Shown here: positions 285-20,307 of the stretch, piece after piece
How the letters are laid out: each line of letters starts with the position of its first letter
Position numbering within the stretch: position 1 is the first letter of the stretch
Assembly: GCA_013415865.1 (NCBI GenBank)
Contig: CP058896.1
Coordinates: 1,097,957-1,161,956, forward strand
Length of the DNA: 64,000 bases
Reading direction: 5' to 3'
Source: Methanomassiliicoccales archaeon
Lineage (GTDB): Archaea; Thermoplasmatota; Thermoplasmata; Methanomassiliicoccales; UBA472
Notes under the pieces: model-generated
The model's database searches: none
What the model was told of the DNA's origin: nothing
The model's input: only the letters and a program-made list of their open reading frames with translations
Made by a program: the position numbers and the translations under genes

Positions 285-2891
285 GTGGCCGACGAGAACG
301 AGAACAATGGGCAAGATATCCGACCAACGGTCCAGGAGGAGGTCCCGAAGAACCTGATCAAGCGCCCTATAGAGGCTGAGATGAAGAAGTGCTACATCGA
401 TTATGCGATGAGCGTCATAGTGGGCCGGGCATTGCCGGACGTGAGGGATGGGCTGAAACCGGTCCACAGGCGCATCCTGTACGCGATGTACGACATGGGC
501 ATCGCCTCTAACAAGCCGCATAAGAAGAGCGCAAGGGTGGTCGGTGACACCCTCGGCCGTTATCACCCTCATGGCGACACCGCGGTCTACGATTCATTGG
601 TCCGTATGGCCCAACCATTCTCCCTCAGGTACATGTTGATAGATGGTCAGGGGAACTTCGGGTCGGTCGACGGCGATTCCGCGGCCGCGATGCGATACAC
701 TGAATGTCGTCTCAGCAAGATAGCCGAGGAGATGCTGCTTGACATCGACAAGGAGACGGTCAACTTCGTGGACAACTTCGATGGGAGCCTCAAGGAACCA
801 GAGGTCCTTCCCGCGAAGCTACCGAATCTGATACTCAACGGAGCGTCGGGAATAGCGGTCGGGATGGCCACCAACATGCCTCCCCACAACCTCAAGGAGA
901 CCGTGGATGCCATAGTGCATCTCATAGATCACCCCGATGCCGAGGTGATCGACCTCATGCAGTTCATAAAGGGACCTGACTTCCCCACGGGGGGAATTTT
1001 GTATGGTGTAGGTGGCATCCTTGAGGCCTACCAGACAGGAAGGGGCAAGCTCCGGGTCCGTGCAAGGACGGAGATCGAGGAGCACGAGGGCAGGACAAGG
1101 ATCATCGTCAGAGAGATACCTTATCAGGTGAACAAGTCCAAGCTGATAGAGTCGATAGCTGACCTGGTGAAGGACAAGAAGGTCGAGGGCATCACGGACC
1201 TGCGCGACGAGAGCGACAGGCAGGGGATGCGCATCGTCATCGAGCTGAGGAAGGACATTCAGCCGGACATAGTGCTGAACCACCTGTTCAAGCAGACCCA
1301 GCTCGAGTCGGGATTTGGTGTGATAAACCTAGCGCTGGTGAACAATGAGCCCAAGGTCCTGACCCTCAAGGAGCTGCTCCAGAATTACATCGCTCATCGG
1401 CACGACGTCGTGGTGAAAAGGACCAGGTATGAGCTGGCACAGGCAAGGAAGCGCGAACATATACTCATAGCGCTGATCATGGCCGTGGACGCGATAGACG
1501 AGACCCTTGCGATCATCAGGGGTTCCGGGACCCCCGAGGAGGCAAGGAACGGCCTCATGACGAGGTTCGGGATCGATGAAGAACAGGCGAAGGCCATACT
1601 GGACATGCGCCTGCAGAAGCTGACGGGCCTGGAGATCGAAGAGCTGAGGAACGAGTTCGCCGACCTCGAGAGGACCATCGCCGACCTGTTGGACATATTG
1701 GCGAACGAGAGCAGGGTCTACGGCATCATCAAGACAGAGCTGCAAAAGCTGAAGGAGGAGTTCGGGGACGAGCGGAGGACCGAGATAGTGGCAGACGCCA
1801 GGGACCTGGAGGACGAGGACCTCATCCCGAACGAGGACATGGTCGTCATGGTGACCCAGGATGGTTATATCAAGCGCGTCCCGCTCGACACCTACAAGCA
1901 GCAGAGGCGTGGCGGCATAGGCCTCATGGGAATGGAGACCAAGGAAGAGGATTTCGTCACTGACATGTTCGTCACGCTCACCCACAATTTCCTTTTGTTC
2001 TTCACGAACAAGGGACGCGTGTACAGCCTCAAGGCCTACAAGCTCCCGGTCGGATCGCGCCAATCGAAAGGCAAGGCGATCATCAATCTCCTGCCCAAGC
2101 TCGAGGACGGCGAGAAGGTCATGGTGACCATGCCCGTGGAGAAAATATCTGCTGTAGAGCGGTACCTGGTCTTCGCGACGAAGAACGGCATCATAAAGAA
2201 GACGCCATTGGAAGCCTACTCGAACATACGCTCGTCGGGCATAATAGCGATAAGCCTTGAGCAGGGCGATGAGCTTGTGGACGTGAAGATCACCGACGGG
2301 ACGAAGGAGATAATCCTCGCGACGAAAGAAGGCCAGGCCGCAAGGTTCGAGGAGACGCAGGTGCGTCCGATGGGCCGACCGGCGCATGGCGTCATCGGCA
2401 TAAGGATGGATGATGGCGACGAGGTCGTCTCCATGGCGGTGGTCACCCCAAGGTCGATGCTCCTCACGGTCACGGAGAACGGTTATGGGAAGATAACCCC
2501 GGTGGGAAAATGGGAACCTACGGACGAGCACGACGTCTATCGTAAGACCAACAGGGGCGGAAAAGGGGTCATCACAATCAAGACCGATGAAAGGAACGGA
2601 AAGGTCGTCAGCGTCATGGAGGTCGAGGATGAGGACCAGCTGGTCGTCGCCTCCAAGTCAGGCAATGTACAGAGGATCATCGCCTCTGAGATCCGGAAGA
2701 CGGGCCGTGTGGCAATGGGTGTCCGTATCATGAGGTTGAAGGAGGAGGGCGACAAGGTCATCGCCGTTGCCCGTCTGGCGGGCCGAAAGGAGGAACAGAA
2801 GGTCGTTGAGACCGAATCGAAGGGAGACCGCCTGCTCCCTGATATCCCAGAGGAGCCTGGGGGAAGATCCGATACGGGGGAGGATGATTGA
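285..2891 (+). CDS. gyrA: DNA gyrase subunit A
   Basis: This 868-residue protein is the DNA breakage-reunion subunit of gyrase. The catalytic tyrosine is Tyr138 in the motif AMRYTECR. The quinolone-pocket helix reads [10 protein letters not shown] (94-103), with Thr99 at the place of E. coli Ser83 and Asp103 at the place of Asp87. The C-terminal beta-pinwheel begins with a GyrA-box QRRGGIG (540-546), the feature that separates true gyrase from topoisomerase IV. Length is close to bacterial GyrA (about 875). The start is GTG at 285, following an AGGTGAG ribosome binding site; an ATG at 281 is out of frame. It follows gyrB directly and probably forms one operon with it. Confidence 0.97.
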
Positions 2892-2981: not shown

Positions 2982-3689
2982 TTGAAAGTGTTCAGGAACT
3001 CGATCCCCGGTTTGGACAAGATATTCCGCACGGACATCGAGGCGCCGAAGGTCGTCCTTATCACCGGGCCTCCGGGGTCCATGAAGACGAGCTTCTGCTA
3101 CTCGCTCATGCTCAACTATCTCGAGAAGAATGACGAGTTCGGTCTGTATGTGACCTTGGAGGAATCAGCAGAAAGCCATATGCGCAACATGCGGTCGCTC
3201 AAGCTGGACATGACGAACAATATGGAGATATCCGATTTCTCGGACCTGAGGGACCTTGACGAGATCGTCGATATCGATGACCCCACAAATTATGTCGAGT
3301 TCATAATCCAGATGATACACTATTACAAGAAGAAGCACGGGGACAGGTTCACGGTCTTCACAATGGACTCTCTCGGCGCTCTTTATTCTCTGATGGAGGA
3401 CACCAAGGGCATGCGCAAAAGGATGTATCATTTCTTCAAGACCTTGAGGGATTATAACCTGATATCTTTCATAGTGATGGAGAGGACGCCGGGCGCGCCC
3501 TCGGAGATGATGGGGAACGAGGGTTTTCTCGTCGATGGAATAATAGAGCTGGGCCTTGATAGGTCACGAGGAAAGCTTGTGCGCTTCGTCCGCGTCGAGA
3601 AGATGAGGGCGTGCGATCACAGCATGGAGAGCCATACGATGGAGGTCGGAGAAAAGGGGATCACGGTCCTGGGCCCGACATTGGCCTGA
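2982..3689 (+). CDS. KaiC-like RecA-superfamily ATPase
   Basis: A 235-residue single-domain ATPase of the KaiC/GvpD type. The opening FRNSIPGLDKIF matches the usual 'G(I/L)xxLDxLL' start of KaiC-like domains. Walker A is GPPGSMKTS (about 29-37) and Walker B is the hydrophobic strand ending TMDSLGALYSL (about 126-136). The start is TTG at 2982 behind GGCGGTG; GTG at 2988 is an alternative. A TATA-like GTTTTATCATA lies at 2933-2943, so the gene may have its own promoter as well as readthrough from gyrA. The coiled-coil zinc-ribbon gene follows 33 bases later. Such archaeal KaiC paralogues are often signalling or regulatory ATPases; the substrate here is unknown. Confidence 0.75.
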   Translation: MKVFRNSIPGLDKIFRTDIEAPKVVLITGPPGSMKTSFCYSLMLNYLEKNDEFGLYVTLEESAESHMRNMRSLKLDMTNNMEISDFSDLRDLDEIVDIDDPTNYVEFIIQMIHYYKKKHGDRFTVFTMDSLGALYSLMEDTKGMRKRMYHFFKTLRDYNLISFIVMERTPGAPSEMMGNEGFLVDGIIELGLDRSRGKLVRFVRVEKMRACDHSMESHTMEVGEKGITVLGPTLA

Positions 3690-3722: not shown

Positions 3723-4808
3723 ATGGTGGACGAGCAGGTGCCAATCTGGGACGTCATCGAGGAGTTCAAGAACAAGATCAAGGTCCAGGAGATAGACCTG
3801 AAGAAGAGAAGAGAGGAGCTTGACAAGCGCGAGGCCAAGGTCCGAGAGGATGAGAGGGAGATGGCCGAGCTCAGGGCGGACCTGGATAAAAGAGCGGCAT
3901 CCGTGTCCGCGAGAGAGACGTCCATAGGGGCACGCGAGGCAGATGTGGCGAAGAAAGAGGCCAAGCTTAGGACCCTCGAGGCCGAACTGGCCGCCATCGA
4001 GAAGCATCTTACCGCTGAAAGGGCAGTGATGCAAAGAAGGCTGGCAGAGATGACGGAACGGGAGGCCGAACTGCTCAGGATGTCAGAGGTCTGTTCCGAG
4101 GGCGAGGTCAGGGCGAAGGAGGCCCTGGCGCATTTGTTGGCCGCGGAAGAAAGGATGCTTGCTGAGGAGGCAACGCTCAAGAAGTTGCTCGAGGAGGCTT
4201 CTGGCAGAAGGGAGGAGATCCTTGCCAGGGCAAAGGTCCTAGAAGAGCAGAGCGCATCGGTAGCGGCCAGCAGGCGCCTGATGATCGAACAGCAGAAGAG
4301 ATTGGTGGAGCTCGAGCGCACGTTGAACGAGAGGGAGAAGGACCTGAACGAAAGGGCGCTCTTCCTCGAATCGAGGATAAGGAACATCCCAGCCCAGGCC
4401 GAGGACGTCATCCCAAGCATCGGACCGGTGCCTGAGGAGGGCAACGCCGCGGCCCTGGAGGCTAAAGTGGACGAGGTCCCGGAGATGAAGAGCGTACCGG
4501 CACCGATAGAGCCAGAAGTGCATGCCGAGCCAGCATCCATACCACATGAGATAAGCTGCCCCAAGTGCAGAACGATGATCGAGGCAACGGCAGAGAACTG
4601 TTGGGCATGTGGAGCGAACGTCAAACAGGCATATGAGGAACTCAATCGACCGGTCCAGGTCCAGGAGCCCCCTGTCCAACCGGCGCCGAAAGAAGAGACC
4701 AAGACCCCTGTTGGAGATGGAGGACGCGATGAGCAGAAGGTCGCCCCCGCCCATGAAGAGGAGGCAAAGAGGCCGGTCTCGATAAGAAAGATAATAAAAA
4801 GGAAATGA
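3723..4808 (+). CDS. Coiled-coil protein with zinc ribbon and basic tail
   Basis: This 361-residue protein has a long, highly charged heptad-rich region (about 12-225, rich in E, K, R, L and A) that should form an extended coiled coil. A linker follows, then a four-cysteine zinc ribbon (CPKC near 279, CWACG near 295), then a proline/glutamate-rich segment and a basic C-terminus RPVSIRKIIKRK. No signal peptide or membrane segment is visible, so it is probably cytoplasmic. The ribosome binding site AAAGGTGAAA precedes ATG 3723. The tail resembles the last part of the giant membrane protein encoded next (PRTFRKIVKRD), which suggests that both bind the same partner. No named family recognised. 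Confidence 0.7.
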   Translation: MVDEQVPIWDVIEEFKNKIKVQEIDLKKRREELDKREAKVREDEREMAELRADLDKRAASVSARETSIGAREADVAKKEAKLRTLEAELAAIEKHLTAERAVMQRRLAEMTEREAELLRMSEVCSEGEVRAKEALAHLLAAEERMLAEEATLKKLLEEASGRREEILARAKVLEEQSASVAASRRLMIEQQKRLVELERTLNEREKDLNERALFLESRIRNIPAQAEDVIPSIGPVPEEGNAAALEAKVDEVPEMKSVPAPIEPEVHAEPASIPHEISCPKCRTMIEATAENCWACGANVKQAYEELNRPVQVQEPPVQPAPKEETKTPVGDGGRDEQKVAPAHEEEAKRPVSIRKIIKRK

Positions 4809-4815
4809 GGCCCGA

Positions 4816-4845
4816 CCTTTTTTTTCAAAAATATTTTTATATTAT
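4816..4845 (+). terminator. T-rich terminator after the coiled-coil gene
   Basis: Two T-runs (4818-4825 and 4834-4838) directly follow the stop codon at 4808 without a strong hairpin, as is usual for archaeal transcription termination. Confidence 0.5.
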
Positions 4846-4904
4846 TCGCGGTAGCCCGTGATGGCCAATTTTTATAATCTATGTATTTTAATATTATTTC
4901 AGGC

Positions 4905-4945
4905 CATATGTATTTATAATCCGTGAAGTTTATTTTATCCGATTA
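4905..4945 (+). promoter_or_regulatory. AT-rich promoter of the giant surface protein
   Basis: The 159-base gap before ATG 4968 is strongly AT-rich. It holds two TATA-like boxes, TATTTATAAT (4911-4920) and TTTATTTTAT (about 4928-4938). Either would place transcription start 10-26 bases before the ATG, giving a short leader with little or no ribosome binding site. Confidence 0.45.
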
Positions 4946-4967
4946 AACGAAGTCATCGGGTGGGCTT

Positions 4968-7900
4968 ATGAAAATGGGGGATAAACTAACAAAGTTCGCT
5001 AGTGCGATGATCGTATGGTGCATGGTGTCGACCTCGTTGTTAGGTCTTTTGCTGGTCGCGGCACCGATCGTCGCGGAGGGAGCCGGCGTTTCTAACGCCG
5101 ATGTAACGATAGGCGCAGACAACCCTCTTGTGATCATGGGCGGCATATATGTCCTTGGTCACAATCTGACCGTAGGGTCTGGGGGGACCGCCTACTTCGA
5201 GAACTGCAGGATCAATGTGACACAGAACTACGACCCCGCTCACCCGTTCGACCCGGCCGATTTGATGTATTGGATCAAAGTGCAGGATGGCGGTCAGCTA
5301 ATCTTGAAGAATGTCACGGTGACGAACCAGCTCGTAACTCAAAACATGCCCGCCCCAGGTCTCGGCATCATCGTCAGGAATGATGGCTACATGCTCGTTC
5401 AGAATTCTACGTTGGCATTCCCAGGGCACTTCGTCGTGGACAACGCCCATCTGATCATGTGGGACTCCGTCGTCAAAGGTATCGACGCCCAGACTATAGC
5501 AGAAGAATGCGACTTGAGTTATTTCGTACCCGATTACTTTGATGATGCCCCTGTGATGCTCTTCATATCGAGCGACGTCCAGCTTTATAACACAAAGCTT
5601 TTGGGCACATTTAAGAACTCGATTTGGACCAACACCCCTGATCTCTTAAGCTTCAGCTACCCATTTGCAACAGACGATTCTAGCAGGAAGACCGTCACCT
5701 ACTCGTTTGAGAGGAACGTCCTACCATCTGTCACCGGAACGGCCGTCGGCGAGAACGCTGTTAATCTGACAATGGAGGATGGACTATTCTACTCTGTAGA
5801 GGCTGGAGAACAGCTCACCTCACAAGGATTTGACATCGCAGGCCTATCGTTCTCCTCCGCCGATGTTGGGTTCATCACCCTCAATATACAATACTCGGCA
5901 CCATATCCATTTGCCGACGCAACCCCAGATGCTTTCAGTTATACCATCCCCTTCGGAAGCCCCGTGGCCACTGGCATAACCGTGACCCCGACCTGGGGGC
6001 CTGACCCATCTGATGATATGGAGATCGTGAAGTCAGCCTCACTCCCATCAATGTCATCACAGGACCTGGCCAACCTATTGATATCATATACGAATGGCGG
6101 ATCAAATGTGGTCAAGATAAATAGGATATGGGTAGATGTTGGCTTGGAGTATCAGTCTTACAGGAACATAACTCTGGCAGGCAACACAAATTTCCTGGCG
6201 GTCAACTCGGTGTTGGATATAAACAATTATAACTACACCGATGAATACAATTATACGTGGAACAAACTGGTTATAGCGGACCAGGCCACGGCGTACCTTT
6301 ATGGCGTGAATGTCACCGACACAAAAGGAACTCCATCGCCAGATGGAATATCGCCGATAATCTGCGATAGCAAAAATGTAATTATCCTACCCGAAGAAAA
6401 GAGTATACTTGACAACACTGGCCAATCTATAACTTCTTTGTTCATGAATGATGATAATTATTATTCTATACAAAATGGACAAACATTCAACATTAATAAA
6501 TTTACAACAAACGGTCTTTCTGGAGGGTTGTTAAGTGCGAGGCTATATGTCAGATATATTGCAAATGTGGGATATACAACTTCAAATTATTTGACATGGG
6601 GAATAGGAGAGAGCTCTGTAAAAAAGAATGCTATATTGTTCTCATACCAAACTGGAGAAACTCAGGTTTCCTATGATTTGTTTACAAATGGAGTTACAAC
6701 AATAGAGGACATTCAAAGTCTCAACATATCATTTGAAAATGTGGGTGGAGAAACAATCGGCATCGATCAGCTTTGGTTAGAAATTGAACTCGATCCCAAT
6801 GTTTACATATATAGGTGGGCCAATTTCAATGTAACCGACGAACAAGCATTACCTGTCGATGGGGCCAAGATCAGTTTGGTTGACCAGAGGGGTAATCCAT
6901 TGGTCTATATCAGCCCCTCTGGTACGAGCTCCACCCCTCCAATAGAGGTATTGAATTATTTGGGGAGAACAGCCTCAGACTTCAATATAACAGATCCATT
7001 TGGCCATGCGTCTGTACCAGTACTCACCGAGATCGTGAACAGCTGGTCATTACCTAGGTCCATGGACCTATATGGTGTAAGGTCTCCGATGAGGTATGAT
7101 GCCACGGTCACATATGTAAATGCAACATCTGTATTGTTCGATGAGTCTGTAGCAGTCTCATTCGAACAGTTCCCAGAGATGAGCATTGTAGGTCTCGACC
7201 TGGATGTTAAAATGGAAGGTCTTTATGTCGACAAGCCAGACTTATTGCCGATCAACCCAGGTCACAGTCCTGAACCCATGTATAAAAATATGACCGGTTC
7301 GACCGTCAATGTGACAGTCTGGAATAAAGGAATTACAGCTGCGCAATTTATAACGGTACAAGTCTTAGACATCTATAAAGCCAAGACCATCATCGTGGCA
7401 AATGTGACTGTAAATTCTCTATTGCCAGGAGAGTGGGCGGTCATAACGGTGCCATGGGTTAACAACACAGATGGCCTTCACGAGATCAAATTCATTGTGG
7501 ACCCCAAGAACACCATTCTCGAAGAGGATGAGAGCAATAACGCCATCTCTCATTATGTGAATGTTCTGCCTCTATTGCCAGATCTCTCGGTCTCAAATAG
7601 CGATATCAACTTCAGCATGACCCCTGCGATGACCGGCATCCCATTGACGATAACAGCCACCATCTATAACACATATGGAAGGGCAGATGCAGTGAACGCC
7701 ACGGTCAGCTTCTATCTCGGTCAACCGACTTCAGGTGGAATATTGATCGGGACGGATCGTGTGACGGTCAGTGCAGGTGGGCAGGTCAATGCCACCTTGG
7801 TCTGGAACCCCAGTGTCGTTGGTAAGTTCACGATATATGTGGTGGTCAGCGGCGTTTTGGAATACTCATATGCGAATAACCAGGCATACGCCAACCTTGC

Positions 7901-10796
7901 AATCTTCGTGTCGCAGAGCGGCCAATTGGAAGTGAACGACACTGTCGGAACGATGTACATCAACGAATATAGGAATCAACAGCAAAATGTCATTATCCGA
8001 GAGAATGGAACATTGGTCTTGAACGCAACATTGTTCATGAAGCAGAGCAATGCTAACCAATACTGGATCGTCGTTCAGGATAATGGTAGGCTGGTTCTCA
8101 ATGGAGGAGGTCTGATATCATCAGATCAAGCGCTGACCGTCTATCTTGCAAACAATGCGAACCTTACTATAACGAACGCAAACCCGCAATCGAATAGTAA
8201 GGTGACCATCATCGCCGATGACACCTCGTCTATATACATAGCGAACTCTGGAATCGGTTATGATTTCATCGCGCCAAGCACCTCCCAGGCGGTATTTGTC
8301 GCATATGACTCACTGTTCCTGAGGAAGTGGACATACTTTGGAGGTCAAGCCATAGCAGATCTGACGAGCGTTGCGATTCCGAAGCTGGACCCGAGCGAGA
8401 ATGCTATCATCAACCATTACCGTTGGATAACGGTCACCACATACGATGGAAGTGGCACAGTAAAATTGTCCGGAGTATATGTCGAGTTAAAGAGCTGGAA
8501 CACCGCAATACCGATCTACTATGCCTCTGGAGTGAGCGACTCCAATGCGGAGGTCAAGTTCAAGGCGATCTGTGATGTAATTGTCGCGGGGCCATCCGTT
8601 CAAGATTATGGCAACTACAAAATTAATGGAACATATTGGGTTGATGGTAACAGGATCGATTCCTTGGCTGATCAAGAGGTCAGTCTATTGTATTACACAG
8701 AGCCATTATCGATCGCCAACAGCGTTGAAAAGCTGATAATACCCGTCCTGTTATCCGATGTATCGATAGTGGCCAGCGATATTGTGGTATCTCCCACAAA
8801 TCCTGTGACGAACACAACAGCGACTTTATCGGCCACAATAAAGAATTTAGGCAGCCAGGCAGCTAATGGAGTTAACATTACGTTCTATCTTAATACAACT
8901 GGAACAAGAACGTATTTAGTTAGCCGCATAGTGACGAGCATACCGAGTGGGCAGTCCTATACGGTCAACGTCCCATGGATGCCAAAAAAGCCTGGCAATG
9001 AGACAATCCTCGTAACACTAGACGAAGGACAGGTCTTGAATGAGAGTACCAGGGGCAATAATCAGGCAAGCATCAATGTGAAGGTCTTGGACATTCCACA
9101 CATATATGTTTCCCAAATATCCTTCAACATTGGTTCAGGAACTATGCCCATCTCCCAGGCCATCGTGGGTCAGCAGGTGAAGATAAATGCGAAACTTGTA
9201 AATGACGGAGAATCGTCTGCAACAGACTTTACTGTAAGCTTCTGGCTCAATCAACCGGTAACTGGAACCTTGATAAGCACGGTGCCTGTATCGAACATCG
9301 CCGCGGGCTCGGAGTACACGGCATCTACGTTCTGGGAGGCAACATCCATCTCTGGTGGAGGTGCCTACCAGAACAGGCAGATATTTGTTACCGTGGATAA
9401 GATGGAATATACTAAGGTCACTGACGTCCCTCAATCTCAGATCATCCAGATCATAGATGATCGTCCTGACCTTATAATTGAAGACGATGTCGTCGTGACC
9501 AAGGGAGCTACGATAGCATCGGGAGCGAGCCTAGGTGAGAGGATAAAGGTATGGTTCAATGTAACAAATGTCGGCATGTCCACTGCTGAAGACGCGGTCA
9601 TATTGGTCAACATGACCTCTGGGACAACCAACGTGGTCTTAGCAACATTTGTGATCACATTAGACCCGAGCGAGACACGACAGTATAATGTAAGTTGGCT
9701 CGTCAGCGGTATTGCCCTTGGCACGTATGATCTGAACATATGGGCCAATCCGAACCAGACCTTTAAAGAGGCCTCTCAGACGAATAATCATTACATCACA
9801 GAATTCGACGTGGTCGTCTTAGAGGACCCTGTGATCGAGATCGTCCTGCAGACAGGTGGAAAGACAACCTTCGAGCCTGGTGATAAGATCACAGTGAGCG
9901 GGACGATCAAGAGCAAGGATGGCATACCCATCGTTGGTCAGCCGGTAAAGGTCAGCCTGAGAGACAGTAAAGGATTCCAGATCGGCACCGCTCAAACAAG
10001 GACGACCGACGAGACCGGTTGGTTCATAACTACGATCAACGTATCTCCTGACTATTCTGGAAAGGAGGCCTACGTCACCGTAACGATAAATGATGGCGTA
10101 CAGGACGTTTCTGGTTCGGTGAAGATCAACATATCGACAGAAGAAGGTCTACCGATCCCACTCTGGCTAATACTGTTGATCATAGTTGTGATAGTATTGG
10201 TCGTAGCGTTCTTCTCTTGGTACCTGTACCGTTACAGCCTAGGAAAGATGGTTGAGTGCGGCGAATGCGGTGCATTGATCCCGGAGAGCTCTAAACGTTG
10301 CCCGAAGTGCGGAACGGTCTTCGAGACCGGAACGGCAAAATGCTCGGAGTGTGGTGCATGGATACCGGCCAATGCAACAGAGTGCCCGGAATGCCACGCC
10401 AAGTTCCTAACGATAGCGGTCGAGCCAGAGAAAGGGGACGCATACACCAAGGCAATGAAGGAACAGTATGACCAGTATGTGAACGGTTACCGCCAGCAGG
10501 CGATGGCAGCCCTTGGTTCAAAATACTCCGAGGAGAAATTCCAAGAGTGGTTGAAGACCGAACCAGGATTCCTAACCTACGACCAATGGGTGAAGAAGAC
10601 CGAGGAGGACCGGAAGTCAGGCGTCTTCCCCTGCCCCAACTGTGGTACCCCGAACCCCCGCGGAAGCACCATATGTCACAAGTGCGGCACGGTGTTCGCG
10701 ACCGTCCAAAAGGAGCAGCCACCAGAGGAGAAACCGAGGACCTTCCGGAAGATCGTCAAACGCGATAAGGAAAAGAAGCCTCCTGAGGGTCAGTAG
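4968..10796 (+). CDS. Giant CARDB-type surface protein with cytoplasmic zinc ribbons
   Basis: A 1942-residue exported protein. Residues 1-38 form a signal peptide (KLTK, a long hydrophobic core, then VAAPIVAEGA). The extracellular part contains right-handed-repeat-like segments and several CARDB/Ig-like modules with the recurring pattern 'PDLxxSxxxI..P..G......N.G...A.....F' and many N-glycosylation sequons. A single membrane helix lies at about 1731-1755 (PLWLILLIIVVIVLVVAFF). The cytoplasmic tail carries zinc ribbons: CGECG...CPKCG and CSECG...CPECH from about 1764, then CPNCG...CHKCG from about 1889. It ends in a basic motif RTFRKIVKR. A moderately AT-rich block (6355-6800) encodes a diverged copy of an upstream domain. 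Surface adhesin, sensor or S-layer-associated roles are possible; the function is unknown. Confidence 0.75.
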   Translation: MKMGDKLTKFASAMIVWCMVSTSLLGLLLVAAPIVAEGAGVSNADVTIGADNPLVIMGGIYVLGHNLTVGSGGTAYFENCRINVTQNYDPAHPFDPADLMYWIKVQDGGQLILKNVTVTNQLVTQNMPAPGLGIIVRNDGYMLVQNSTLAFPGHFVVDNAHLIMWDSVVKGIDAQTIAEECDLSYFVPDYFDDAPVMLFISSDVQLYNTKLLGTFKNSIWTNTPDLLSFSYPFATDDSSRKTVTYSFERNVLPSVTGTAVGENAVNLTMEDGLFYSVEAGEQLTSQGFDIAGLSFSSADVGFITLNIQYSAPYPFADATPDAFSYTIPFGSPVATGITVTPTWGPDPSDDMEIVKSASLPSMSSQDLANLLISYTNGGSNVVKINRIWVDVGLEYQSYRNITLAGNTNFLAVNSVLDINNYNYTDEYNYTWNKLVIADQATAYLYGVNVTDTKGTPSPDGISPIICDSKNVIILPEEKSILDNTGQSITSLFMNDDNYYSIQNGQTFNINKFTTNGLSGGLLSARLYVRYIANVGYTTSNYLTWGIGESSVKKNAILFSYQTGETQVSYDLFTNGVTTIEDIQSLNISFENVGGETIGIDQLWLEIELDPNVYIYRWANFNVTDEQALPVDGAKISLVDQRGNPLVYISPSGTSSTPPIEVLNYLGRTASDFNITDPFGHASVPVLTEIVNSWSLPRSMDLYGVRSPMRYDATVTYVNATSVLFDESVAVSFEQFPEMSIVGLDLDVKMEGLYVDKPDLLPINPGHSPEPMYKNMTGSTVNVTVWNKGITAAQFITVQVLDIYKAKTIIVANVTVNSLLPGEWAVITVPWVNNTDGLHEIKFIVDPKNTILEEDESNNAISHYVNVLPLLPDLSVSNSDINFSMTPAMTGIPLTITATIYNTYGRADAVNATVSFYLGQPTSGGILIGTDRVTVSAGGQVNATLVWNPSVVGKFTIYVVVSGVLEYSYANNQAYANLAIFVSQSGQLEVNDTVGTMYINEYRNQQQNVIIRENGTLVLNATLFMKQSNANQYWIVVQDNGRLVLNGGGLISSDQALTVYLANNANLTITNANPQSNSKVTIIADDTSSIYIANSGIGYDFIAPSTSQAVFVAYDSLFLRKWTYFGGQAIADLTSVAIPKLDPSENAIINHYRWITVTTYDGSGTVKLSGVYVELKSWNTAIPIYYASGVSDSNAEVKFKAICDVIVAGPSVQDYGNYKINGTYWVDGNRIDSLADQEVSLLYYTEPLSIANSVEKLIIPVLLSDVSIVASDIVVSPTNPVTNTTATLSATIKNLGSQAANGVNITFYLNTTGTRTYLVSRIVTSIPSGQSYTVNVPWMPKKPGNETILVTLDEGQVLNESTRGNNQASINVKVLDIPHIYVSQISFNIGSGTMPISQAIVGQQVKINAKLVNDGESSATDFTVSFWLNQPVTGTLISTVPVSNIAAGSEYTASTFWEATSISGGGAYQNRQIFVTVDKMEYTKVTDVPQSQIIQIIDDRPDLIIEDDVVVTKGATIASGASLGERIKVWFNVTNVGMSTAEDAVILVNMTSGTTNVVLATFVITLDPSETRQYNVSWLVSGIALGTYDLNIWANPNQTFKEASQTNNHYITEFDVVVLEDPVIEIVLQTGGKTTFEPGDKITVSGTIKSKDGIPIVGQPVKVSLRDSKGFQIGTAQTRTTDETGWFITTINVSPDYSGKEAYVTVTINDGVQDVSGSVKINISTEEGLPIPLWLILLIIVVIVLVVAFFSWYLYRYSLGKMVECGECGALIPESSKRCPKCGTVFETGTAKCSECGAWIPANATECPECHAKFLTIAVEPEKGDAYTKAMKEQYDQYVNGYRQQAMAALGSKYSEEKFQEWLKTEPGFLTYDQWVKKTEEDRKSGVFPCPNCGTPNPRGSTICHKCGTVFATVQKEQPPEEKPRTFRKIVKRDKEKKPPEGQ

Positions 10797-10918: not shown

Positions 10919-12601
10919 TCAGAGCTGAAGGGTCTTTTCCCTTACCTCTTTCATCACTCTTTCGGGGTTGCGATAATAGGCCGATATGACCTTTGCGACC
11001 TGTTTGTAATTGTTCACCCCTAGCTTCCTCATATACTCCAATATCTCAACGCGCCTTTGGAGCTCTCTCTCCATCTCTCTCGGGGACCACGACTTGATGG
11101 CCCTCACCTTCTCAAAGATGTAGCTATGACCGCTATAATTGAAAGAGTCGTCGGCCGGATTCCAGGTGAACACCGAGTTTGTGATCAGCTCACCTGTCTC
11201 AGGGTCCATCCCTACGATCTCAGTGATCGATTTCACACGTCTGGTCATCTTCGTGCCGACCTTGACCTGTGCCTGTAGGAGGACGATGTCGAGAGCTGTT
11301 ATCAGGGCCCTTGGCAGATTGATCGGGTCGTTCTCCATACGATGGACCATCGCCTGAACGTCCTCGGCGTGGAATGTTGAGTATGATGTCTTTCCTGTGG
11401 CCATGGCCTGGAATACGACATAGGCCTCCTTGCCCCTCACCTCACCGACCATCAGGTAGTCAGGCCTCTGTCTCAAGGCAGCGGTCAACAGATCGAACAT
11501 GTCGACCTGTCCGACCGAACCTGATTTCTTTCCTCCGAACCCTTCCCTTGTAAGACCTGGTATCCAGTTCTCATGAGGAAGGTTCAGTTCCCTCGTATCC
11601 TCTATGGAGATGATCTTCTTCTGCGGGGGTATGAACAGAAGTACCGCATTGAGCGTCGTTGTCTTGCCTGAAGCGGTACCCCCGCAGACAAGCATCGACG
11701 AGCCGAACTCGGTGGCGATCCAGAGATATGCCATCATCTCTGTGCTCATTGTCTTGAACTTGATCAGGTCCAACGGAGTGAAAGGGTTCTCCTTGAACCG
11801 TCTTATTGTGAAGGAGGAACCTCTTTTGGTCACATGTTTGCCCAAGCTGGCATTTAAACGCGAGCCATCTGGGATCGTCGCATCTAGCAAGGGGTCGGCC
11901 ACAGAGATATGCTTCCCACAGCGCTGGGCCATCCAGACCACGAAAGCATCGAGCTCCCTGTCCGTATAGAACTTTACATTGGACTTTATAGAACCGTATT
12001 TCCTATGGAAGATGTATAAGGGGATGTTCACCCCATCGCAAGATACGTCCTCAACATTCGGGTCTATCATCATCACATCTATGACGCCGTACCCAACGAA
12101 ATCTCGCTTGAGATAGTACAATATGCGCTCCTTGGAGACCGGGTTGAGCGTGACATTAAATGTCTTGAGGAGCTCCTCCATGCCTTTCTTCACCAAGAGG
12201 CCCCTTTCCTCAGGCCTCTTCTCATCTGTGAGGTTAAGGGTGATCGTCAAGGACTCCTTCAATATATCCAGGAGGTCTTTCTCATCAGGCGTCAGCTGAG
12301 GCTCTATGACCTCATAGATATACTCTGATGAGGTGTTGTCGAACTTGATCCTTACGAAGGCCGCCGGTTTTACAATTGTGTTGACCTCGACCTCATCAAC
12401 ATTTGGCTCAGTTATTTTCGGGATCTCCGTGATCGTGGATTTTGAAGGGTCGGTCAGGCTGTCCTCGCTGATCATGACCTTCATAGGTTTTGACCTTAGG
12501 CGGTAGAGAAGATTGATATAAGACTCCTTTAGACCGGACCTGGGATTCTCTTCTTTCGGCCCCATCAGCTCTTCCGGCGTTATCTCCTTTTCAGCTTCCA
12601 T
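10919..12601 (-). CDS. Type II/IV secretion ATPase, FlaI/TadA-like (second paralogue)
   Basis: A 560-residue cytoplasmic motor ATPase that powers assembly of a type IV pilus-like filament. Walker A is GGTASGKT with Lys313, followed by IISIEDTREL (Asp box), LTAALRQRPDYLMVGEVRG (Walker B) and the His box TSYSTFHAED. The N-terminal third carries the all-beta/alpha domain typical of archaeal FlaI. The start ATG 12601 has a GAGGTGA ribosome binding site and lies nine bases after the upstream membrane gene. It is last in the operon 17382-10919 and is clearly paralogous to the ATPase at 14590-16320, but diverged in the N-terminal region. Whether the two ATPases mix in one hexamer or act separately is unknown. 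Confidence 0.9.
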   Translation of the reverse strand: MEAEKEITPEELMGPKEENPRSGLKESYINLLYRLRSKPMKVMISEDSLTDPSKSTITEIPKITEPNVDEVEVNTIVKPAAFVRIKFDNTSSEYIYEVIEPQLTPDEKDLLDILKESLTITLNLTDEKRPEERGLLVKKGMEELLKTFNVTLNPVSKERILYYLKRDFVGYGVIDVMMIDPNVEDVSCDGVNIPLYIFHRKYGSIKSNVKFYTDRELDAFVVWMAQRCGKHISVADPLLDATIPDGSRLNASLGKHVTKRGSSFTIRRFKENPFTPLDLIKFKTMSTEMMAYLWIATEFGSSMLVCGGTASGKTTTLNAVLLFIPPQKKIISIEDTRELNLPHENWIPGLTREGFGGKKSGSVGQVDMFDLLTAALRQRPDYLMVGEVRGKEAYVVFQAMATGKTSYSTFHAEDVQAMVHRMENDPINLPRALITALDIVLLQAQVKVGTKMTRRVKSITEIVGMDPETGELITNSVFTWNPADDSFNYSGHSYIFEKVRAIKSWSPREMERELQRRVEILEYMRKLGVNNYKQVAKVISAYYRNPERVMKEVREKTLQL

Positions 12602-12610
12602 CTCTTCACC

Positions 12611-13531
12611 TCAGATCAATGTACCTATAAGTCCGATCAGCAACATGATGAACGAATGTCTAAGACCGTTCGCTATCACCCCATCCTGCAAGACCCCGGC
12701 CAGTATACCATCCCCGAACGCATGGATGGCCACAGAGATGATGAATATCAGCTGCACCTGTGGGATGACATCGGTCTGAATGCTGTTCGGCAGACTGGTG
12801 ATGCCCGCCTGCTCGGCCCCCTCCGCCACATCCCTGCCCGCGGTCTCCATGTTCGGAAGGAAGGTGGTGTTCAGGATGAATATCGTTGCAAGGAACACCC
12901 CGAAAGCGACGTAGATCACCACAGTATAAGTGGACATTGTCAGGCGGCGGTCATTGGCGTTGATAATATTCTCCCTGGCGTCATGAGCGACCATGTTGAG
13001 GACATCTGAAACGCTTCCACCGGCGTCGTTCGCCTTAATGATGATGGACACCATCCTCTTTGTCAGGGGGGTGTTGACCCTCTCAGAGAACAATCTTAAG
13101 GCCTCCGAGGCCGGGACACCCCAATCGATCTGCGCGGCCATCCTCTGGATCTCTGGGGTGAGACTACCATATATCCCCCGGGAGGAGACCTTGATGGCCT
13201 GCGCCAGCGTCATTCCGAATCGTCCGCCCTCCGCTACATCTCTGAGGAAATCGGGGAGCCTGTTCTCGATGTCCCTTATCTTCTTTATCTTCCAACCAGC
13301 ATAGAACCCATACGGGCCTGAGAAGATCATGAGCCCGATCATTACGAGATGGATCCACTTTATCCTTTCCCCTAGGTCTATCCTCTCGAACGCCAGCAAT
13401 GCTGCGAGGACGCAGAAGGCGGCAAGACCTATCCCACCAATGATGAGGAGCGTCTTTGAGATGTCCTTCTGCTTAATAAAAAGCTGTTCGACATCCACGA
13501 CCTCTTGTTTATCTTTCTTTTTTGCCATCAT
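12611..13531 (-). CDS. TadC/FlaJ-like pilus platform membrane protein (second)
   Basis: This 306-residue membrane protein belongs to the type II secretion F / TadC family, which forms the inner-membrane platform on which the ATPase acts. Two N-terminal helices (about 27-47 and 62-82) are followed by a cytoplasmic T2SF domain with RLPDFLRDVAEGGRFGMTLAQA and the typical SVSDVL(N)MVAHDARE segment. Further helices lie near 200-222 and 255-305. The start ATG 13531 (MMAKKKDK) follows GAGGTGAG. It sits between the first TadC-like gene and the second ATPase with six- to nine-base gaps, so all are translated from one message. Confidence 0.85.
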   Translation of the reverse strand: MMAKKKDKQEVVDVEQLFIKQKDISKTLLIIGGIGLAAFCVLAALLAFERIDLGERIKWIHLVMIGLMIFSGPYGFYAGWKIKKIRDIENRLPDFLRDVAEGGRFGMTLAQAIKVSSRGIYGSLTPEIQRMAAQIDWGVPASEALRLFSERVNTPLTKRMVSIIIKANDAGGSVSDVLNMVAHDARENIINANDRRLTMSTYTVVIYVAFGVFLATIFILNTTFLPNMETAGRDVAEGAEQAGITSLPNSIQTDVIPQVQLIFIISVAIHAFGDGILAGVLQDGVIANGLRHSFIMLLIGLIGTLI

Positions 13532-13537
13532 CTCACC

Positions 13538-14593
13538 TCACATGGTGGACTCCTTGGTGGTGTTCCAGATGAAGAAAATAAAACCGAACTGAGAGAACGG
13601 TATCATCAGTCCCACGACCATATAGAGCAGCAGGACGGTGCTGTCCGCACTGCTCCCCGAGTTCCCAGGGACAATGGCCATGATCGCCATTATGACCACC
13701 AAGAACAGAGGGAACGCGACGACCACGGTCACAAAGGTCTCAGCCATAAGACCTAACGTCTCAAGCTGTTTCCTCATGTCGAGCTTTGCCTCCTTCTCGA
13801 ACTGCTCTGCCTTCTGCAGGAAGTATGGCTTCAGCTGCCCTCCAGAGGTCGCCGTGGTGACGACACCCTGTAAGAACTCTTGGAACTTTGAAGATGGGGT
13901 ACGCTGGGCGGCCTTGCTTATCGCCGTCAGGATATCCACTCCCAGCAGCTCCGTGTCCCTGGTGATCCATTCCGCCTCGGTCTTTATCTCGCCATAGATC
14001 GGCTGTCGAGCCAGCTCCTTGAAAATCACGTCGATGTTGACATCCGCAGAGGCCATCGCCGAGATGAAGCTCATGGCGGCACCGATCCTCTTGTCAATAT
14101 CCCGTTTCCGGGTCTTTGCTTTGGATCCTGGCAAAGACATCATGACCGCCCAGGTGAGCAATGGAGGCAGCACTATGACCATCAATGTGAATATCAAGAC
14201 AAGACCGCCGGCCACATTCAAGAGAGCAATCAAGGCGGCCCCGAACAACAATCCTGCAGTGATGGAGACTATCGCCACGAGGACCGTCGTCATGTAAACA
14301 TATGCCAGGAACTCCTCTACCCTCAACCTCATATGCGCCTGTTGGAGCGAAAGCTCCAACTTGGCATTGGGCCGCATCGTACGTGTGACGAGGGGCCCCA
14401 AGACCTTCCAGCAGAGCTTTTGATAAGGAGAGAGCTTTACATAATCTGGTATGGCGCCCTTCGGCAGCTTTACCATTCTTGGCCCGGTCTCGTCTATCTT
14501 CGAGCGGATGTCCTTGGTACGGAGGTATTGTTTCTTTGATGATTCCAGGCGCGTGAATATATCTGATGATGCCTCAGGACACATCTCTCTCAA
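13538..14593 (-). CDS. TadB/TadC-like pilus platform membrane protein (first)
   Basis: A 351-residue T2SF-family membrane protein with an N-terminal cytoplasmic region, two helices (about 97-150), the cytoplasmic T2SF core (RKRDIDKRIGAAMSFISAMASADVN...) and C-terminal helices near 285-345. The longest frame begins with TTG 14593, overlapping the upstream ATPase stop as TTGA. ATG 14584 is better spaced from the GGGGG/GAGAG ribosome binding site and is probably the real start. Having two separate platform proteins recalls the TadB/TadC pair of bacterial Tad pili, whereas archaella use one FlaJ. Confidence 0.85.
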   Translation of the reverse strand: MREMCPEASSDIFTRLESSKKQYLRTKDIRSKIDETGPRMVKLPKGAIPDYVKLSPYQKLCWKVLGPLVTRTMRPNAKLELSLQQAHMRLRVEEFLAYVYMTTVLVAIVSITAGLLFGAALIALLNVAGGLVLIFTLMVIVLPPLLTWAVMMSLPGSKAKTRKRDIDKRIGAAMSFISAMASADVNIDVIFKELARQPIYGEIKTEAEWITRDTELLGVDILTAISKAAQRTPSSKFQEFLQGVVTTATSGGQLKPYFLQKAEQFEKEAKLDMRKQLETLGLMAETFVTVVVAFPLFLVVIMAIMAIVPGNSGSSADSTVLLLYMVVGLMIPFSQFGFIFFIWNTTKESTM

Positions 14594-16320
14594 CCCCCTG
14601 CTCTCTTTGCTGCTTCCATCTCTTCCATCTCCTTTCTGATGCGCAGAAGCGTCTTCTGAGGCTCCTTGTAATATGCCTGGGTGACGGCCCAGATCTTGCG
14701 ATGGTCCGTCATGTTCTTCGCGACCATGTAATTGATGATCTCTATGCGGCGATGGAACTCCTCCATCATCTCCTCCTGGGTCAGCGACTTCATCTCCATT
14801 ATCTTGTCAAAGAGGAAACTATGGCCCTTATAGATGAAACGGTCTGTGGCCTGGTCCCATTCGTAGACGGTGTTCGTGATGAGCTCGTTCGTCTCAGGCT
14901 CGAAACCTACTATCTCGATGACCTGCTTCATCCTCCTGACGTAGTCCGAGCCGACCCTCACCTGTGCCTGGATCAGCACATTCCTAAGGGCGGTTAGCAG
15001 TATCCTCGGACAGTTGATCGGAGGGTTCTCGAGACGGTTAACCATCGACTTGACCGAGTCGGCATGCATCGTCGAATAGGTGGAGTGCCCCGTCGCCATC
15101 GCTTGGAACATGATGTACGTCTCCTTACCCCTGACCTCCCCCACGATGATGTAGTTCGGTCTCTGCCTCAAAGATGCCCTGACCAGGTCATACATGTCGA
15201 TCTCGCCGGCGGCCTTACCATCAGGCCCCTTCTCTCCGACCCCCGTCCTGGTGGTCCCTGGTATCCAGTTCTCATGTGGCAGGTTGATCTCCCTTGTGTC
15301 CTCAATGCTGACGATCTTGGCCCCTGGCGGGATGAAAAGAGTGATGGAGTTCAATGCGGAGGTCTTACCAGATGCCGTCCCCCCGCACAATATCATCGAC
15401 TCGCCGTTCTCGACCCCCAGCCAAAGATAGGCCATCATCTCAGGGTTGACGGTCTTGTATTTCAGAAGGTCTACCGGGGTGAAAGGGCGGTCCTTGAAAC
15501 GCCTTATCGTGAAGGTCGAACCTCTTGTGGACACCTCCCTGGAATAGGTCGCGTTGACACGGTGACCTTCTGCGGTGGTACCATCAAGGATAGGGCTGGA
15601 GACGGAGATCTGTTTGCCCCCCCTTTGTGCTAGGGCCACGACGAATGAGTTCAGATCGTCCTCGTTAGTGAAGACCAGGTTCGTCTTTATGCTCTCGAAC
15701 TTCCTATGGGAGACGAATATAGGTATCCCTACACCATCGCAGGAGATGTCCTCAATGTCATCATCCTTCATCATTACATCGATGACCGAGTGTCCAACAA
15801 AATCTCTGATGATGTAGTATTCTATCCTTTTCTTCGACAGATCAGAGACCCTCACGCCTCTGGACTCAAGGTAGCTATCGATCGCGTGACCGAGATATTC
15901 CTTCTTGTCCATGACGGTCAGCTTCTCCCATTCATACCCAAGGGTCTTCTGCAAGGTGTCCTTTATCAGGCCCAGAAGCCCCATCTCCCTTATGTCGAGC
16001 CGAGGTTCGATGACCTCATAGAGGTGCTCGCTCGTATCGTTGTTGTAAGTGATCCTGACATAACTATAATCCGGTAGGACCGGATAGAACTCCTCCACCT
16101 CCATGGCCGGGCTGGCCAAAGGTGGTATCTCCGTTATCTTGGAACCCAATTTCTGTTCTACCTTCTCCTCCCCGAGGTTTACTTCGGTCTGGGCTTCGGA
16201 CAAGCCTGCCGGCACCATGACCTTCCTGGCCTTCTTTCGCCCCAACAGACCCCGGCCTCTTTTTTCTTTAGATCCTTCATCGCCGCCTCGGCCACCCTTG
16301 TCTACTTCACTAGCTTCCAT
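14590..16320 (-). CDS. Type II/IV secretion ATPase, FlaI/TadA-like (first paralogue)
   Basis: A 576-residue motor ATPase for pilus assembly. Motifs are Walker A GGTASGKT (about 313-320), VSIEDTREINLPHENW, LVRASLRQRPNYIIVGEVRG and the His box HSTYSTMHADS. The N-terminus has a lysine/arginine/glycine-rich stretch (about 5-40) absent from the second ATPase. ATG 16320 is chosen because AAGGTTGTG lies six bases upstream; GTG 16326 would add two residues. It lies 18 bases after the pilin-like gene and overlaps the next gene. The close match to the other ATPase from the central domain onward shows an old duplication within the operon. Confidence 0.9.
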   Translation of the reverse strand: MEASEVDKGGRGGDEGSKEKRGRGLLGRKKARKVMVPAGLSEAQTEVNLGEEKVEQKLGSKITEIPPLASPAMEVEEFYPVLPDYSYVRITYNNDTSEHLYEVIEPRLDIREMGLLGLIKDTLQKTLGYEWEKLTVMDKKEYLGHAIDSYLESRGVRVSDLSKKRIEYYIIRDFVGHSVIDVMMKDDDIEDISCDGVGIPIFVSHRKFESIKTNLVFTNEDDLNSFVVALAQRGGKQISVSSPILDGTTAEGHRVNATYSREVSTRGSTFTIRRFKDRPFTPVDLLKYKTVNPEMMAYLWLGVENGESMILCGGTASGKTSALNSITLFIPPGAKIVSIEDTREINLPHENWIPGTTRTGVGEKGPDGKAAGEIDMYDLVRASLRQRPNYIIVGEVRGKETYIMFQAMATGHSTYSTMHADSVKSMVNRLENPPINCPRILLTALRNVLIQAQVRVGSDYVRRMKQVIEIVGFEPETNELITNTVYEWDQATDRFIYKGHSFLFDKIMEMKSLTQEEMMEEFHRRIEIINYMVAKNMTDHRKIWAVTQAYYKEPQKTLLRIRKEMEEMEAAKRAGG

Positions 16321-16344
16321 CTTCACAACCTTTGTACAGTCTCT

Positions 16345-17382
16345 TCACTTGGTGACCTCATAGTTCACGAAAGAATGGTAGTAAGCCACATTACTGATCC
16401 CAACGTTTTTGATGGTCAATGATACTGTGTATATCCCTGTCGTCGGGTTCTTATTCAATTCAACCTTCCAAAACAGCTTCGTAGGGTCCAAATTTCCCGG
16501 GGCCTGGTTTTGATAATAATAATGGTCTGGATTGATCGTCACTTTTCTATTGGCCTCTGAACCCAGTAACGGCATCCCCGCTATGCCCGTAAGGGTCTCT
16601 ACCAGATAATTATAGTAAGCCTCCCCATATTTGGTCGTGAAATCGAATACTATGTTGGAATCAACGTCTGGCCTATAGTTTGACTCCATCACAGTGACCA
16701 CTTCTAGATTGATCCCGATCGACCCCGTCCCTGAGTTCGATGACGCTTTCCCGATCAATGAGGTCTGATAGAAGACCGTGTTCAAAACCGGTCCACTTGG
16801 TGAATTGGAGTCGAGGAGGAATATTATGCCTGGCTTCGACCTTGCGATCTGACCATCATCCTGCTTTAGTATGATCGCTCCGTTCTCATAGGCTATCCAT
16901 TGCTGGACATAATATCTATTGGGCGCATAGAACTCGATAGAGCCCCCCCCAGGCGAAGGGGACACAGAGACCCCGCCGACGGTAACTGTCAACCGGCTCA
17001 TTGAGGTCGACCCACCAACCGGGGTGATAGTCAACAGACCTGCTGTCGGAGATGCAAATGCAGGGATGCCCTCTGATCCTAGGTCGATGCTTTGGTATAC
17101 AGGAAGGGAAGGCTGTCCAGACAGACGAGTGTAGATCACCATGTTGTCAAGGCTTCCTTTCATATACCCAAACTCATTCATCACGGAATCCATATGGGTC
17201 CGTTCATGCTCTTTCAAGGTGACAGGCATCCATGTGTTTACGAACAGGGTCAATAGCGTCAGGAAGATCAGAAGCGCCATGATCGTACCGACGACCGAGG
17301 CTACACCCTCCTTGTCCTTCCTTATAAACCTGCTCTTACTGGGATAGGTGGACCTCAATCTATCCGAACCCCGACAGCGCAT
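16345..17382 (-). CDS. Archaeal type IV pilin-like protein
   Basis: A 345-residue secreted protein at the head of the pilus operon. The N-terminus has a class III (prepilin) leader: RKDKEG followed by a hydrophobic stretch VASVVGTIMALLIFLTLLTL. Cleavage by a prepilin peptidase is expected after Gly26. The remaining 300 residues are glycine/serine/threonine-rich beta-type sequence with no recognised enzyme motif. It is much larger than ordinary archaeal major pilins (100-200 residues), so it may be a minor or tip pilin. The start ATG 17382 is the longest option; TTG nine codons later is possible. The upstream 200 bases are AT-rich and include the promoter. Confidence 0.7.
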   Translation of the reverse strand: MRCRGSDRLRSTYPSKSRFIRKDKEGVASVVGTIMALLIFLTLLTLFVNTWMPVTLKEHERTHMDSVMNEFGYMKGSLDNMVIYTRLSGQPSLPVYQSIDLGSEGIPAFASPTAGLLTITPVGGSTSMSRLTVTVGGVSVSPSPGGGSIEFYAPNRYYVQQWIAYENGAIILKQDDGQIARSKPGIIFLLDSNSPSGPVLNTVFYQTSLIGKASSNSGTGSIGINLEVVTVMESNYRPDVDSNIVFDFTTKYGEAYYNYLVETLTGIAGMPLLGSEANRKVTINPDHYYYQNQAPGNLDPTKLFWKVELNKNPTTGIYTVSLTIKNVGISNVAYYHSFVNYEVTK

Positions 17383-17685: not shown

Positions 17686-17748
17686 ACTCTGTTCACTTGT
17701 CTCCATAAATACCTGATAAGACATTAGGTGGAACAGAGGCGGGTTGGC

Positions 17749-18174
17749 ATGCATATCAGATCCTTCGAGACGAACGGCATAGAGGCGAAACGCTTCTCAA
17801 AGACCGGAGAGCGAATGGCAAATATTCGCATCGACCAGAACAGCAGCATCATCCAGATAGTCAAATCTTCTAACGACATCGCCTCGATAGATTTCAGGTT
17901 CACCGCCAACTATGTAGGGCTCGGGTTCATAAAGATAGAAGGCCAGATGACCGTTCAGGGGGATGTGGACGTCATGATCTCGGAATGGAGCAAGGACGGA
18001 AATATGAACCCTGAGGATGCCAACATCGTCCATAACACCATCGTGAGCAACTGCCTTCCGACCGCCCTCCTCGTTGCCAGAGATGTGAAGCTGCCTCCAC
18101 CTTTCCCATTACCGCGCATCAACATACAGAAAAAAGGAGAACCCCGCCCCTCCAGCAACGTCGAGGTCGCCTGA
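17749..18174 (+). CDS. SecB-like protein (tentative)
   Basis: A 141-residue soluble protein. The middle has alternating beta-type sequence (FRFTANYVGLGFIKIEGQM), and it closes with a proline-rich element VKLPPPFPLPRINIQ preceded by NCLPTALLVARD. This arrangement recalls the SecB fold, whose C-terminal signature is a proline-rich 'FPPLNLxPxNF' segment; an archaeal SecB-like protein is known as MJ0357 of Methanocaldococcus. If correct, it would be a holdase for unfolded secretory or toxin proteins. ATG 17749 is preferred to GTG 17728 because GAGGCGGG sits at ribosome-binding distance, with a TATA-like ATAAATAC about 40 bases upstream. It abuts the convergent coiled-coil ATPase gene. The assignment is inference. 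Confidence 0.45.
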   Translation: MHIRSFETNGIEAKRFSKTGERMANIRIDQNSSIIQIVKSSNDIASIDFRFTANYVGLGFIKIEGQMTVQGDVDVMISEWSKDGNMNPEDANIVHNTIVSNCLPTALLVARDVKLPPPFPLPRINIQKKGEPRPSSNVEVA

Positions 18175-20136: not shown

Positions 20137-20307
20137 CTTTATCGGGCAACCAGCATAAATATGTATGTATGCTATGAACATGGGAGCGTCACGGCCATGG
20201 CGCTCCTTGGCGATGGGCTGTCTGGCCCCGTGAGCATGTCATGCCGCCAAACAAATAATATATATCGACGACGTATCATAGAAGAGTTCAGTCGTTGGCC
20301 AGGGCTT

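Follow-up and report, generated by a model that had tools for sequence, protein, structure and literature searches.

Two neighbouring genes of a Methanomassiliicoccales archaeon (class Thermoplasmata), one for a cytoplasmic coiled-coil protein (hereafter CC) and one for a giant surface protein (hereafter GIANT), share a short basic tail that occurs almost nowhere else, and they lie between a KaiC-family ATPase gene and a type IV pilus cluster. The shared tail suggests that CC and GIANT plug into the same site of one surface machine. KaiC, CC and GIANT probably constitute an accessory or regulatory module for a pilus of an already known kind, with a new linear motif common to CC and GIANT. We give a probability of roughly 0.4 to the reading that both tails are a linear motif for one common acidic site on the inner membrane face at the pilus base. 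Its grounds are the conservation and specificity of the tails, the synteny of the genes, the observed pairing of KaiC with CC and the predicted topology of GIANT; that the tails bind, where they do so and that the module has a regulatory role is what we infer.

Gene neighbourhood and pilus cluster

The window, a stretch of 64,000 nucleotides, is part of a 1.82-Mb single-contig genome. Families (f) and genera (g) of relatives are labelled as in the genome search tool, and loci and genomes are denoted by L and G, respectively. On the forward strand, gyrA (285..2891), an upstream neighbour conserved by synteny, is followed by the genes of the KaiC-family ATPase (2982..3689), CC (3723..4808) and GIANT (4968..10796). 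Facing them on the reverse strand, PilB1 (10919..12601), a type IV pilus assembly ATPase, matches T2SSE with 117.6 bits (cut-off 24.9), and its paralogue PilB2 (14590..16326), the second pilus ATPase, is placed by synteny and by 722 bits to the PilB1 profile. TadC1 (12611..13531), probably one half of the platform protein, matches ArlJ/FlaJ-like and UpsF models below cut-off and is supported by synteny, and TadC2 (13538..14593), the probable other half, is placed by synteny and orthologues. The score against the archaellum motor ATPase equivalog NF058587 was 454.6 bits, below its cut-off of 550.

Adjoining PilB2, a pilin-like protein (16345..17382, reverse strand) carries a class III-type signal (FIRKDKEGVASVVGTIMALL) at its N-terminus RKDKEGVASVVGTIMALL; this motif is also found in 8 relatives, and the orthologue is in place in 8/8, while a Pfam search with the protein returned no match. 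A conserved 148-residue protein (17728..18174, forward strand), likewise in place in 8/8 relatives, is encoded between the pilin-like gene and the gene with which the pilus cluster ends. The latter (18175..20181, reverse strand; same order in 8/8 relatives) encodes a natural fusion of 668 residues between a long coiled coil and a KaiC-like domain (PF06745, 3e-16; DUF7504, 3.7e-12), and can be viewed as a natural counterpart to KaiC and CC, which are encoded separately.

The gene order gyrA-KaiC-CC-CARDB protein-pilus, which the sequence-only reading had singled out, recurs in five families of Methanomassiliicoccales, and parts of it are kept more widely in the class. Twenty loci were retrieved from these five families, and in every one gyrA-KaiC-CC-GIANT faces PilB1-TadC1-TadC2-PilB2 as far as the contig reaches. 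GIANT also opposes pilus genes in many families of the class, including ones without a nearby KaiC or CC, and adjacency to gyrA is gone in f13 and others. GIANT and CC occur together in 34 genomes of the order, one of them alone in 10 and neither in 103, a co-occurrence that is confounded by phylogeny and in which several one-sided cases are contig breaks. Pilus ATPases are present in every tested genome that has GIANT. Two f5 genomes (G010 and G013) keep the two-ATPase pilus with GIANT, CC and the KaiC orthologue all absent, indicating that the pilus does not depend on the module.

The KaiC-family ATPase and its coiled-coil neighbour

The KaiC-family ATPase (235 residues, TTG start) consists of one RecA-like domain that matches PF06745 with 129.5 bits against a cut-off of 26.6. 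Its orthologues are 51-82% identical, and the Walker A motif G-P-x-G-S-x-K, the E60-E61 pair and D129-S130 are invariant or nearly so among them. Against the circadian two-domain KaiC model TIGR02655 this single-domain protein reached 50.7 bits (cut-off 546). ArlH (FlaH), too, is a KaiC-superfamily ATPase with one domain whose gene accompanies a motor of type IV pilus type, whereas the KaiC of the window is not part of an archaellum operon, sits beside a coiled-coil protein of its own and scores 23.7 bits against the ArlH equivalog model (cut-off 215).

According to its orthologues and to AlphaFold, CC (361 residues) is predicted to be a cytoplasmic rod with one zinc ribbon and a basic C-terminal tail; a segment at its N-terminus, PIWxVIEEFK, is conserved as well. 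Within this locus it is KaiC and CC that belong most closely together. Outside the order, in L158-L161, KaiC is immediately upstream of CC and both are away from GIANT and the pilus; f12 is an exception, encoding both but apart. In every lineage examined, a tailed CC is accompanied by KaiC, usually adjacent. At a threshold of over 350 bits, no KaiC orthologue was detected in f6-g26, f8-g32/g46, f10, f14, f15 and the f7 genomes tested (the f7 genomes examined, probably Thermoplasmatales, are mostly without KaiC). CC is tailless in f6-g26, f8-g32/g46 and f10, as it is in f8-g49, where KaiC is encoded elsewhere, while GIANT retains its tail in f6-g26, f8-g32/g46 and f10. The CC tail therefore roughly tracks KaiC and the GIANT tail does not, so that KaiC as the sole common partner of the tails is excluded. 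When KaiC and CC were modelled as a read-through fusion, AlphaFold predicted one continuous helix of 207 residues and an ordered ribbon, and left the tail undocked (pLDDT 46) in a model with just 7 aligned sequences behind it.

The giant surface protein and the zinc ribbons

GIANT is a CARDB surface protein of 1942 residues with five CARDB stretches (150 bits). Its predicted topology comprises a signal peptide, an extracellular part, a transmembrane helix and a cytoplasmic zinc-ribbon module. The transmembrane helix (residues ~1732-1756; 10161..10235, forward strand as for all parts of CC and GIANT) corresponds to helix 20-44 in the model of the C-terminal fragment and is also supported by alignment. 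It is followed by zinc ribbons 1 and 2 (10257..10394; domain matches, cysteines invariant in the alignment), a conserved helical domain (10431..10619; pLDDT about 70-90) and zinc ribbon 3 (10632..10685; domain match and alignment). Each of the three ribbons has two CxxC knuckles and scores above cut-off. The ribbon of CC, C279-x2-C282...C293-x2-C296 (4557..4610), scores under the Pfam cut-offs for DZR/Zn_Ribbon_1 and was identified by sequence, its four cysteines being nearly invariant in the alignment. Zinc ribbons thus precede the tails in both proteins, as had been suggested, with the correction that CC has one rather than several and GIANT three.

The cytoplasmic part is the best-conserved region of GIANT, with a mean identity to nine full-length orthologues of 57% over 212 residues versus 32% for the extracellular part, and its module is recognised across the class. 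Beyond the class, weak matches to the transmembrane-ribbon module were obtained and the tail was not found in them. Although the model of the C-terminal fragment contains confident helices, it is weak, and a structure search with the cytoplasmic module gave no match at E<=0.001. The conserved helical domain had no significant PDB match, and a profile search against solved structures returned zinc-ribbon matches only, all weak, including ribosomal L40e. In some f5 genomes, the end of GIANT is overlapped or directly followed by a protein of 226-250 residues (L052, 17010-17690; L054, 17482-18234), and the one in L054 weakly matches a zinc-ribbon profile.

A basic tail shared by two proteins

In the window, CC ends in ...KRPVSIRKIIKRK and GIANT in ...EKPRTFRKIVKRDKEKKPPEGQ. 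The CC tail SIRKIIKRK (4779..4805), located by genome pattern scan and orthologue alignment, is the exact C-terminus. The GIANT motif TFRKIVKR (residues 1925-1932; 10740..10763), located in the same way, stops 10 residues from the end, and in relatives it lies 17-58 residues before the end amid unalignable acidic C-termini. The earlier description of a motif that ends both proteins therefore holds for CC and fails for GIANT. Likewise, the P-x-[ST] lead then assigned to the motif varies between the two families and among orthologues, and its core is kept: the positional profiles of both have in common hydrophobic-[KR][KR]-hydrophobic-hydrophobic-[KR][KR].

The strict pattern [ST]-x-R-K-[IV]-[IV]-[KR]-[KR] matches exactly CC and GIANT in the whole 1.82-Mb genome, so the similarity between the two tails is real. 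The looser pattern [KR][KR][ILVM][ILV][KR][KR], searched in the last 60 residues, occurs in 47 of 718 non-overlapping gene calls, and 47/47 are CC or GIANT; these calls cover the window plus 68 loci from relatives, selected for holding CC, GIANT or KaiC, and so represent neighbours rather than whole proteomes. Chance resemblance of the two tails is ruled out by the genome scans together with this exclusivity. The further matches listed from relaxed genome scans all lie in spurious frames or inside folded proteins, except for one in a MetV-like protein (G000:C1:716288, L143), which has RKVVRK 16 residues before its end. Among those listed matches it is the only other real gene of this genome with the relaxed motif at the C-terminus, probably a chance occurrence.

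CC orthologues were found in about 39/147 genomes of the order. Nearly all C-termini in f1, f3 and f5, the families where they are readable (contig ends cut those of f2 and f4), follow [VI]-S-I-[RK]-[KR]-[IV]-I-[KR]-[KR]-[KR]; L018 has the variant VSVRKVSIRRR, and in one Methanomassiliicoccales genome (G014) the tail of CC is lost. GIANT orthologues, also in about 39 genomes, display R-[RK]-[IV]-[VI]-[KR]-[RK] in 31/31 C-termini read, counting a one-residue-insertion variant (L053). One R is invariant across all 32 aligned GIANTs, and prolines stand on either side of the motif in many of them. Within both tails K/R and I/V swap freely, and both are rich in R within the order and in K beyond it. 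In CC as in GIANT, the tail is the best-conserved segment of a hypervariable, disordered C-terminus, and the GIANT alignment places the tails within very acidic linkers. The sequence-only reading had named two findings that would speak against it, absence of the tail from orthologues and its presence in many unrelated proteins; instead, orthologues of CC and of GIANT retain the tail, and hardly any other protein examined carries it.

The tail also persists where the ribbon is lost, both in CC (L004, L005, L027 and L032; some genomes of f5) and in GIANT (G008), which rules out that it is bound up with the zinc ribbon. A strict dependence on the presence of a pilus is ruled out by f7, f14 and f15, whose GIANTs are tailless though pilus ATPases are present. 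In f16 and f21 the CC tails have decayed into K-rich ends. At least two copies of the motif are found in GIANTs outside the order (L119, L122, L128 and L171), for example PKKVVRKPVVEGAPTVVPKKVVRKP in L122.

Possible role of the shared tail

In the mechanism that we propose, the motif, carried in flexible cytoplasmic termini, would dock on a conserved part of the machine other than KaiC. GIANT might thereby be held at the pilus base from outside, and the CC rod, whose helix of ~207 residues would extend about 30 nm by helix geometry, might bring KaiC to the same base. There, KaiC would act as an ArlH-like switch, and CC would be the second component of a KaiC-family pilus ATPase. Counted in favour of docking are the invariance and exclusivity of the tail, its outliving of the ribbon, synteny, KaiC-CC adjacency, the coil-KaiC fusion, the co-presence of GIANT and pilus ATPases, the conserved cytoplasmic part of GIANT and, fitting avidity, the repeated motif of GIANTs from several families. 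Counted against it are the undocked tail in the AlphaFold model, the free interchange of K/R and I/V, which fits non-specific binding to anionic membranes, the tailless GIANTs of f7/f14/f15, the situation in G010/G013, the decay in f16/f21 and the loss in G014. The broader proposal of a new linear docking code, by which a KaiC-type ATPase, a rod-like coiled coil and a giant outward-facing protein that serves as adhesin or sensor would converge on one type IV pilus site, is tentative and rather unlikely as a whole.

The main rival to docking is membrane-surface binding, in which the tails are short amphipathic basic anchors that hold CC and the GIANT module at the inner leaflet with no protein partner. 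The spacing gives a helix with a hydrophobic face and a K/R face, interchange within each class of residue would be tolerated, and several copies in some GIANTs would raise avidity. Nevertheless, GIANT is already anchored in the membrane, the motif is limited to two neighbouring gene families and does not recur in other peripheral proteins, and neither the R found in 32/32 aligned GIANTs nor the flanking prolines of many of them favour such an anchor; we regard it as unlikely, if a serious contender. Somewhat more doubtful is convergence, with the CC tail a KaiC-binding element and that of GIANT an unrelated basic tail. It would account for the constant company of KaiC and tailed CC, for the tailless CC of the KaiC-less f6-g26, f8-g32/g46 and f10 and for the independence of the GIANT tail from KaiC. 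Identical spacing in both families and near-exclusivity argue against it, as does f8-g49 with its tailless CC despite a KaiC elsewhere, and KaiC loss is confounded with phylogeny.

The tails and ribbons might also bind nucleic acid or ribosomes and so tether the chromosome or transcripts to the membrane. This is improbable: while the repeated K-rich tails of f21 look like nucleic-acid-binding tails, the weak ribbon matches include ribosomal L40e and gyrA is next door, the tails lie in very acidic linkers, gyrA adjacency is missing in f13 and others, and no DNA- or RNA-binding fold was recognised. Least probable are lineage-specific basic tails with no common function that reflect a general composition constraint. 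The motif is short and simple in composition, and the R-rich to K-rich shift is common to both proteins, but its conservation against a hypervariable background and its 47/47 exclusivity are hard to reconcile with such a constraint. If the broader proposal of a docking code is true, the code would provide transmembrane, ATP-clocked control over pilus activity in these archaea. The tail offers a specific, mutable nine-residue handle on the connection between outside structure, pilus motor and ATPase.

Relation to known pilus and surface systems

From its gene content, the locus is probably a CdiP-type archaeal type IV pilus to which KaiC, CC and GIANT have been added as an accessory module. The CdiP pilus of Cuniculiplasma divulgatum, also of class Thermoplasmata, is described as having a pair of assembly ATPases and a platform divided between two genes (PMC12448462); the same set is found here in one operon, as genes alone, and is conserved in relatives. 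Unlike here, the sections of that report drawn on describe no KaiC, coiled-coil or giant protein, and they place the CdiP pilins ~500 kb from the machinery, whereas the pilin-like gene of the window is adjacent. The sequence-only reading had spoken of an undescribed surface machine; this is not so for the motor, which is of a known pilus kind, while the KaiC/CC/GIANT module and its tail appear undescribed, and a literature search found no account of such a module.

In the sections of Makarova et al. (2016; PMC4858521) considered, KaiC-family ATPase genes are located beside archaeal pilus operons with a second component that is mostly unknown, and how and via which partner these ATPases act on pili is an open issue. 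In this context, KaiC is tightly paired across much of a class with CC, whose tail is near-exclusively common to GIANT, and the tailed CC, a candidate second component, is absent from the descriptions in those sections. The arCOG07564 coiled-coil and arCOG06883 double-Zn-ribbon proteins of type IV pilus loci that they do contain are alike by description, being of cytoplasmic coiled-coil or zinc-ribbon type, but belong to Halobacteria and Thaumarchaea and to other subclades of the system. Surface-layer proteins with CARDB in Thermoplasmatota and DPANN (PMC10354927, PMC5498576) are large and secreted like GIANT, which adds the conserved triple-ribbon/helix/tail cytoplasmic module and the link to pilus genes. 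The 2016 census (PMC4858521) reports that secretion ATPases were not found in three species of Thermoplasmatales, Methanomassiliicoccus apparently among them; unlike this, the window (10919-16326) and many Methanomassiliicoccales relatives encode two pilus ATPases.
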